From Candidatus Rokuibacteriota bacterium (GTDB taxonomy: Bacteria; Methylomirabilota; Methylomirabilia; Rokubacteriales; CSP1-6): 64,000 nt of DNA. The notes beneath the pieces are model-generated. The model saw only the letters and a list, made by a program, of their open reading frames with translations, searched no databases and was not told the origin of the DNA. Of this stretch, positions 41,102 to 62,387 are shown piece by piece. A program made the position numbers and the translations under genes. Position 1 is the first letter of the stretch; every line of letters begins with the position of its first letter. The stretch covers positions 1-64,000 of the forward strand of contig JAHFDN010000002.1 of the NCBI GenBank assembly GCA_023248995.1, in the 5' to 3' direction.

Positions 41102-41130
41102 TTGACATTTTTCAAAAACGCGTGTTAAGT
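41102..41130 (+). promoter_or_regulatory. Predicted sigma70 promoter of the thrC operon (TTGACA-N17-TTAAGT)
   Basis: TTGACA 41102-41107, TTAAGT 41125-41130, in a locally AT-rich patch. Confidence 0.65.
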
Positions 41131-41150
41131 AGTGAAAATTGCTTGTCGGG

Positions 41151-41213
41151 TCGTGATCGGGGAGGACGGTTGCCCCGATCGTGGAAATCAACCGGGGCTC
41201 AAATCCCCAACCG
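41151..41213 (+). promoter_or_regulatory. Structured 5' leader of thrC operon (hairpin with pseudoknot potential; riboswitch candidate)
   Basis: 12-bp stem 41151-41162/41173-41184; loop CGGTTG (41167-41172) is complementary to CAACCG at 41189-41194 and again at 41208-41213, just before the GGAG Shine-Dalgarno sequence. Confidence 0.5.
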
Positions 41214-41225
41214 ATGGAGCGGTGA

Positions 41226-42473
41226 ATGGTGAAGCTCAAAGGACTGAAGTGCCGTGAGTGCGGGCGCAAGTACCCGTCGTCGCCCGCCCACATCTGTGAG
41301 TTCTGTTTCGGTCCCCTCGAGGTGGATTACGACTACGAGGCCTTGAGGGGGGTCATCACCCGCGCTTCGATCGCCGCCGGCCCCCCCAGCATCTGGCGCT
41401 ACAAGGATCTCCTGCCGATCGAGGGTGACGTGGCGGTCGGCCATCACGTCGGCTTCACGCCGTTGATCCGCTCGCAGAACCTGGCCGAGGAGCTTGGGGT
41501 CACGGAGCTCTACATCAAGAACGACTCCGTGTGCCACCCCACGTGGTCCTTCAAGGACCGGGTGGTGTCGGTGGCCGTCACCAAGGCGAAGGAGTTCGGC
41601 TTCGACACGGTGGCCTGCGCCTCCACCGGGAACCTGGCAAACTCGGTCGCCGCCCACGCCGCCGAGGCCAGGCTCAAGAGCTACATCTTCATCCCAGCGG
41701 ACCTGGAGCAGGGGAAAGTCCTCGGGACGCTCGTCTATCATCCCACCCTGGTGGCGGTGGAGGGGACCTACGACGAGGTCAACCGCCTCTGCTCGGAGGT
41801 GTCGGACAAGTACCGCTGGGCCTTCGTCAACATCAACATCCGGCCCTACTACGCGGAGGGGTCGAAGACGTACGGGTACGAGATCCTCGAGCAGCTGGGC
41901 TGGCGGGCGCCGGGGCACATCGTGGTCCCGTGCGCCGGCGGGTCGCTGATCACGAAGATCTGGAAGGCGATCAGGGAGTGCACGGCCCTGGGTCTCTTGG
42001 AGCGGGCGGCCACGAAGATGCACGCCGCCCAGGCCCTGGGGTGCGGGCCGATCGTGACCATGGTGAAGAACGACACCGACGTGCTGACGCCGGTTCGGCC
42101 CAACACCATCGCCAAGTCGCTCGCGATCGGCAATCCGGCGGACGGTTACTACGCCTACCGGTCCGTGAAGGACTCGGGCGGCTACGGCGAGCACGCCACC
42201 GACGAGGAGATCGTCGAGGGCATGCTGCTCCTGGCCCGCGCCGAGGGCATCTTCACCGAGACCGCGGGGGGCGTCACCGTGGCGGTGACCAAGAAGCTCA
42301 TCGAGGCCGGGGTGATTCCCCGGGACGAATCCGTGGTGATCTGCATCACCGGCAACGGGCTCAAGACCCCCGACGTGCTGCTGGAGCGGCTCGAGACCCA
42401 CGTGAAGATCCGTCCGTCGCTCTCGGCCTTCGACCGGGCGCTGGCGGAGCTGAAGTCCCAGTCCACGCAATAA
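41226..42473 (+). CDS. thrC: Threonine synthase
   Basis: CRECGRKYPSSPAHICEFCFGPLEV N-terminal ribbon; PLP region CHPTWSFKDRVVSVAVTKAKEFG; ACASTGNLANSVAAHAA. Confidence 0.95.
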   Translation: MVKLKGLKCRECGRKYPSSPAHICEFCFGPLEVDYDYEALRGVITRASIAAGPPSIWRYKDLLPIEGDVAVGHHVGFTPLIRSQNLAEELGVTELYIKNDSVCHPTWSFKDRVVSVAVTKAKEFGFDTVACASTGNLANSVAAHAAEARLKSYIFIPADLEQGKVLGTLVYHPTLVAVEGTYDEVNRLCSEVSDKYRWAFVNINIRPYYAEGSKTYGYEILEQLGWRAPGHIVVPCAGGSLITKIWKAIRECTALGLLERAATKMHAAQALGCGPIVTMVKNDTDVLTPVRPNTIAKSLAIGNPADGYYAYRSVKDSGGYGEHATDEEIVEGMLLLARAEGIFTETAGGVTVAVTKKLIEAGVIPRDESVVICITGNGLKTPDVLLERLETHVKIRPSLSAFDRALAELKSQSTQ

Positions 42474-42485
42474 GGAGAACGAACG

Positions 42486-42761
42486 ATGCCGGTACTGGTC
42501 CGCATCCCCACTCCCCTGAGGGCGGTGACGAAGGGCGCGGGAGAGGTGCAGGCGAAGGGCGAGACCGTGGCGCTCCTGCTCGACGACCTCGAGCGCCAGT
42601 ATCCGGGCCTCCGGGAGCGGCTCGTCGAGCAGAGCGGCGAGGTCCGGCGGTTCATCAACATCTACGTCAACGAAGAGGATATTCGCTTCCTCCAGGGGAA
42701 TAAGACGGCGTTGAAGGAGGGCGACCAAGTCTCCATCGTCCCGGCGATCGCCGGCGGCTGA
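42486..42761 (+). CDS. MoaD/ThiS family sulfur-carrier-like protein
   Basis: Ubiquitin-like fold size, ends ...GDQVSIVPAIAGG (C-terminal Gly-Gly). Confidence 0.9.
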   Translation: MPVLVRIPTPLRAVTKGAGEVQAKGETVALLLDDLERQYPGLRERLVEQSGEVRRFINIYVNEEDIRFLQGNKTALKEGDQVSIVPAIAGG

Positions 42762-42776: not shown

Positions 42777-43019
42777 ATGACCCGCGTCCGCGTCCGGCTC
42801 ACCTTTCCCCCCGAGCGGATCCAGGAACCCGTCATCTATCATCTGGTGAAGGACTTCGACATCATCACCAACATCCGCCGGGCCGACGTCAAGGCCGATC
42901 ACGGTTGGGTGATCCTGGAGCTCGAGGGGAAAGAGGACAATCTGGACCGCGGGATCGCCTGGCTCAAGGAGAAGGGCGTGAAGGTGGACCCGGTGGAGCG
43001 GGACGTCATCGTCCCCTAG
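42777..43019 (+). CDS. NIL domain-containing protein
   Basis: VRLTFPPERIQEPVIYHLVKDFDIITNIRRADVKADHGWVILELEGKEDNLDRGIAWLKEKGVKVDPV. Confidence 0.9.
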   Translation: MTRVRVRLTFPPERIQEPVIYHLVKDFDIITNIRRADVKADHGWVILELEGKEDNLDRGIAWLKEKGVKVDPVERDVIVP

Positions 43020-62311: not shown

Positions 62312-62387
62312 GGGGGGTTAGCTCAGTTGGGAGAGCGCGGCGTTCGCAACGCCGAGGTCGAGGGTTCGAATCCCTTACCCTCCACCA
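62312..62387 (+). tRNA. tRNA-Ala (anticodon CGC), CCA encoded
   Basis: 76-nt cloverleaf: acceptor GGGGGGT/ACCCTCC including G3:U70, D-arm GCTC...GAGC, anticodon arm CGGCG-TTCGCAA-CGCCG, T-arm GAGGG-TTCGAAT-CCCTT. Confidence 0.95.

Follow-up and report, generated by a model that had tools for sequence, protein, structure and literature searches.

A conserved leader of a thrC-moaD-NIL operon as a candidate translational cis-regulatory RNA of the Rokubacteriales

Introduction

The thrC-moaD-NIL operon of a Candidatus Rokuibacteriota bacterium is preceded by a leader that, from the comparison of homologous sequences, is best read as an undescribed cis-regulatory RNA family, restricted to the Rokubacteriales and predicted to act on translation. 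The leader lies within a contig stretch of 64,000 nucleotides, here called the window, and 49 of the 52 Rokubacteriales genomes with this thrC paralog carry a homologous leader in front of it, once per genome. This would represent an undescribed RNA family from a largely uncultivated lineage, marking the control of an operon that probably makes homocysteine with the help of a sulfur carrier protein. The element is short, its boundaries are defined at the level of single bases, and its laboratory testing would be easy; a ligand, if found, would in turn give a clue to the product of the operon.

The preliminary description of this stretch had recognised no known riboswitch class in the leader, and the search of Rfam 15 (4227 families) agrees with it. 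The window leader has no match at either the gathering or a relaxed threshold, its best score being 16.7 bits against a gathering threshold of 56, and the homologous leaders are likewise without a match. A tRNA gene at 62312-62384 is the sole Rfam match in the whole window. The literature library searched yielded nothing on riboswitches or other regulatory RNAs of Rokubacteria.

Layout of the leader

The elements of the leader and the genes of the operon, all on the forward strand, are as follows.

41102 to 41130, plus strand: promoter, with TTGACA (41102-41107), a 17-nt spacer and TTAAGT (41125-41130), from sequence reading
41138 to 41144, plus strand: 5' strand of helix P0, AUUGCUU, anti-Shine-Dalgarno, pairing with 41217-41223 in the minimum free energy (MFE) structure
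41145 to 41149, plus strand: 5' strand of helix P1, GUCGG, with its partner at 41211-41215 (GUCGGU/ACCGAU in homologs)
41151 to 41162, plus strand: 5' strand of the long hairpin P2, the stem of the preliminary description, from covariation
41163 to 41172, plus strand: loop of P2, AGGACGGTTG, not conserved on comparison of long-stem leaders
41173 to 41184, plus strand: 3' strand of P2, from covariation
41185 to 41193, plus strand: linker J between P2 and P3, which holds most of the first CAACCG, from comparison of homologs
41194 to 41208, plus strand: hairpin P3, GGGG-CUCAAAU-CCCC, with a T-loop-like loop, from the pattern GGGGCTCRAWTCCCC
41210 to 41215, plus strand: 3' strand of P1, ACCGAU, the same in all leaders compared, 21 short and 13 long
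41216 to 41223, plus strand: Shine-Dalgarno GGAG and 3' strand of P0, GAGCGGU (41217-41223); GGAG is conserved, and predicted to be paired in most short leaders
41226 to 42473, plus strand: thrC-like PLP enzyme, first gene of the operon (TIGR00260, 280.6 bits; PF00291)
42486 to 42761, plus strand: MoaD/ThiS-like sulfur carrier (PF02597, 63.3 bits; TIGR01687)
42777 to 43019, plus strand: stand-alone NIL domain protein (PF09383, 67 bits), with a weak match to the C-terminal domain of MetN

The promoter TTGACA-N17-TTAAGT, the 12-pair stem 41151-41162/41173-41184 with its G-U pairs, the two copies of CAACCG (41189-41194 and 41208-41213) and the small hairpin between GGGG (41194-41197) and CCCC (41205-41208) had all been described from the window itself, and each of them is present. 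The promoter is conserved beyond the window as well, since the strict pattern TTGAC[AT]-N17-T[TC][AT]AGT occurs at the equivalent position in 28 of 35 homologous leaders. An automatic promoter scan did not call the window promoter, because TTAAGT lacks the A at position 2. The transcript would start a few bases 3' of TTAAGT, and the Shine-Dalgarno GGAG (41216-41219) is followed by the thrC-like start codon ATG at 41226. In part of the family, for example in the short leaders L009 and L016, a short frame rich in cysteine codons (MSCCRCS...) begins with an ATG where transcription probably starts. Only in the genus of L006 and L007 does the interval between the promoter and P1 hold an extra GC-rich, hairpin-like stretch.

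Two other types of leader were considered and rejected. An intrinsic terminator or transcription attenuator is not supported, since the window leader contains neither a terminator-like site nor a run of T 3' of P3. As for a conserved upstream ORF or leader peptide, the reading frame is not kept across the leaders, so the leader is not coding.

Conservation and distribution

The homologous upstream regions share the promoter with its 17-nt spacer and the conserved leader. A thrC homolog of some kind is present in all 60 of the relatives first searched, and an ortholog at a strict threshold in 50 of 60 Rokubacteriales genomes; two further genomes (G062 and G078), in which this gene begins directly after the leader, raise the gene-bearing genomes to 52. 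Of the three exceptions among these, two have kept the promoter and lost the whole leader (L002 in G006, and L022 in G032), and the third carries a decayed copy (L048 in G010). The nearly leaderless thrC genes of L002 and L022 reflect either deletions that arose in nature or faults of the assemblies. The leader is absent from all eight genomes that lack the ortholog.

With a covariance model built on P1 and P3, each genome shows a single credible locus and no second one, and none appears in other families of the phylum. The P3 pattern, in turn, has 49 matches in 59 genomes, of which 48 fall at the thrC leader, and its reversed control has none in the same genomes. It also recovers the leaders of G036 and G038, from two other families of the order, to which the covariance model gives weak scores. 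The single extra match (L184 in G031) lies in a region with frames open throughout and is no tRNA. Neither the covariance model nor the P3 pattern points to a regulon elsewhere in the genomes, and the same element was not found at the thrC homologs of other Methylomirabilota families, Omnitrophota, Nitrospirota and others.

Between genomes, the proximal core of the leader reaches 98% identity, whereas fourfold-degenerate sites of thrC have 57% and the promoter spacer 64%. At this one gene, the structured 5' UTR is conserved more than neutral change would allow, as would be expected of a translational cis-regulatory leader. It is this core identity, together with conservation at an orthologous gene, that sets the leader apart from chance, and not its stability: the MFE fold of the window leader is unremarkable against shuffled sequences (z = -0.07), so that stability alone is no evidence here, and the folding-energy z of the homologous leaders reaches about -2.2 at best.

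Helices of the leader

P2 is the helix with direct covariation. In the 13 leaders with a long hairpin, 96.6% of the cells are paired, five pairs have changed on both sides and 18 cells are compensatory; the covariation score is higher than in any of 500 shuffles, and the helix collapses when its strands are slid. P2 would be a peripheral hairpin, present as an insertion in certain genera. The preliminary description had called for covariation of both the stem and a pseudoknot formed by its loop, of which the stem covaries and the pseudoknot pairing is absent from the long-stem homologs compared. According to that proposal, the loop hexamer CGGTTG would alternate between the two CAACCG partners. 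The complementarity is exact in the window, but this 6-nt complement is missing from all 11 of the other long-stem leaders compared (the window being the only one of 12), and shuffled loops of the same composition reach it in 6.4% of cases, which makes the alternation scarcely credible. The second CAACCG overlaps a conserved part of the leader, its CCG(AT) being the 3' strand of P1 that abuts the Shine-Dalgarno. Linker J is variable in the long-stem leaders and more conserved (GCAGCAAAACTC) in the short ones.

P1 (GUCGGU/ACCGAU) and P3 barely vary within the family, and covariation within it therefore cannot prove them; P1 gains support from divergent leaders. P1 terminates at the Shine-Dalgarno GGAG. 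In L027, from another family, the P1 strands are wholly replaced by UCUUCC/GGAGGA, so that the Shine-Dalgarno falls within P1, and the layout of P1, a linker of about 10 nt, P3 and P1 again is unchanged; a six-pair match of this kind has a chance of some percent by a hand estimate. In L030, a G-U pair of P1 has become A-U. Contrary to these, P1 is broken in L007 and L048, and in the window it forms only with its register shifted. The 5' strand GUCGG of the window also has an alternative partner, AUCGG at 41156-41160, within P2.

P3 follows GGGG-CUCRAWU-CCCC throughout the family, with a conserved loop. A fifth P3 pair is seen in L027 (U-A), L028 (C-G) and L037 (C-G), which in L027 and L037 leaves no gap between P1 and P3. 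The closest parallels to this hairpin are the acceptor/T-arm minihelix of tRNA and the T-loop motifs of riboswitches. The T-loop of tRNA has the consensus UUCRANY and is closed by a G-C pair. The P3 loop, too, has 7 nt and a G-C closing pair, fits the positions UCRANY and varies at the two positions that are variable in T-loops; its first base is C and not U, so the full T-arm consensus is not reached. P3 also adjoins P1 as the T-arm adjoins the acceptor in a tRNA minihelix. Detection of tRNA genes gives no call. We regard this as a resemblance, without evidence of tRNA ancestry. Alternatively, the conserved CUC could be explained by pairing with the GAG of the Shine-Dalgarno.

P0 would pair the surroundings of GGAG with the 5' end of the transcript. 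GGAG is conserved 5-9 nt 5' of the start codon, and its predicted pairing takes different forms, namely UGUCU/AGACG in the main clade, AUUGCUU/GAGCGGU in the window and CUC/GAG in others. The leaders' own arms pair at -5.58 kcal/mol versus -4.99 kcal/mol for permuted arms, with a fraction of 0.0013 of the permutations, weakening to 0.066 with only 12 clustered arms. Fold predictions place the Shine-Dalgarno largely in paired regions in most short leaders and leave it free in some, e.g., L063. A 5' hairpin of the short leaders is paired in 81% of cells and plausible by energy; its covariation does not exceed that of shuffles, and it was rejected as a covarying helix.

The operon and its probable chemistry

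The operon most likely serves the synthesis of homocysteine, possibly cysteine, from a protein thiocarboxylate. This reading of the gene content draws on three observations. Firstly, in Methylomirabilis-like genomes (L069, L071 and L073), the thrC-like gene stands in clusters that also hold two NIL genes, moaD and, judging from the translations, what appear to be sulfate-assimilation genes (PAPS reductase and ATP sulfurylase); these clusters have no leader of the thrC type. In addition, no full-length PLP enzyme of Cys/Met metabolism (PF01053) was found in the window genome, which is about 97% complete, and the operon thus probably carries the sulfur step. Finally, Desulfovibrio and methanogens make homocysteine with the participation of NIL proteins (PMC5764234). 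The PF01053 enzyme is apparently also missing from G013, G014, G020, G022, G075, G076, G078, G036 and G037.

The operon shares with the protein thiocarboxylate routes to homocysteine and cysteine, and with the DUF39/NIL-ferredoxin route (PMC5764234), the presence of a sulfur carrier and a NIL domain beside a PLP enzyme. It differs from them in its thrC-like enzyme and in the stand-alone nature of its NIL protein.

Regulatory mechanism

We consider it probable that the leader acts in cis on the translation of thrC-moaD-NIL, through an OFF fold that hides the Shine-Dalgarno. In this modelled fold, P1 (GUCGG/CCGAU in the window) would bring the transcript start to the Shine-Dalgarno, P0 (AUUGCUU/GAGCGGU) would pair with GGAG itself, and P1 would be capped by the T-loop-like hairpin P3. 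The opening of P0 and P1 would then free the Shine-Dalgarno. In the short leaders, a hairpin UUGCUG-UCGGUG-CAGCAA would engage the 5' strand of P1, competing with P0 and P1. A translational switch had already been suggested for this leader; the presence of a regulatory RNA absent from Rfam is well supported, whereas one loop with two partners does not stand as its mechanism, the pairing being found in the window only. The conserved element, its single site and the covariation of P2 stand as results, P1, P3 and P0 have support, and the translational effect, the switch and its trigger are inferred from them. The trigger would most likely come from sulfur amino-acid synthesis, as an end product or an intermediate, and would be sensed by the RNA itself, as a riboswitch, or by way of a bound protein.

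In the first of these two forms, J and the P3 loop would build a pocket for methionine, homocysteine, SAM, cysteine or O-phosphohomoserine, and the ligand would stabilise the sequestering fold. A single biosynthetic operon, the conserved loop CUCRAWU and an expression platform at the Shine-Dalgarno would suit such a riboswitch, as would the sulfur and homocysteine context, the sulfur step that the operon probably carries in its own genome, and the negative search of 59 genomes of the order for SAM-I as a controller of methionine genes. However, conservation extends to no more than about 7-10 unpaired positions, the long leaders differ considerably in J, and there is one gene context and no regulon. 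The scarcity of conserved unpaired bases leads us to keep the riboswitch as a tentative reading, well short of an even chance. That it would be a new class confined to the Rokubacteriales, with a tRNA-elbow-like T-loop core sensing a sulfur amino-acid metabolite, is a rather doubtful proposal; to our knowledge, no natural riboswitch is established for such a metabolite, homocysteine or methionine itself being examples. In the second form, a product of the operon (e.g., the NIL protein) or another RNA-binding protein would recognise P1-P3 and block the ribosome. This would account for a rigid hairpin with an invariant loop, a single target and a weakly conserved linker, and the NIL protein resembles the regulatory C-terminal domain of MetN. 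Nevertheless, we know of no RNA-binding activity of NIL domains, and the NIL-containing clusters of related families lack the RNA, so an autoregulatory leader of this type appears somewhat unlikely.

Two further readings dispense with either sensor. A stable Shine-Dalgarno hairpin might simply damp translation, constitutively or depending on temperature, with no specific signal. Many leaders do fold with the Shine-Dalgarno paired, and the clean loss of the leader in L002 and L022, with the promoter kept, would indicate that it is not essential; the invariant loop and the 98% identity exceed the needs of a mere stem, and we judge damping unlikely. Peptide attenuation, where Cys-tRNA would be sensed through the cysteine codons of a leaderless upstream ORF (MSCCRCS...), is very improbable. 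The sulfur operon would fit, and in 25 of 47 distinct leaders the first ATG falls in one common frame, mostly MSCCRCS-like, but the ATG is missing from the window and 15 others, and 1-nt indels shift the frame across P3.

Comparison with known systems

PreQ1-II and SAM-II riboswitches are compact translational leaders in which a helix ends at the Shine-Dalgarno and a small hairpin lies within. The Rokubacteriales leader differs from both in having no Rfam match and no demonstrated conserved H-type pseudoknot. In its architecture, it would share with these and similar small translational riboswitches a compact 5' leader, a helix ending at the Shine-Dalgarno of a biosynthetic operon, and a small hairpin embedded in it.
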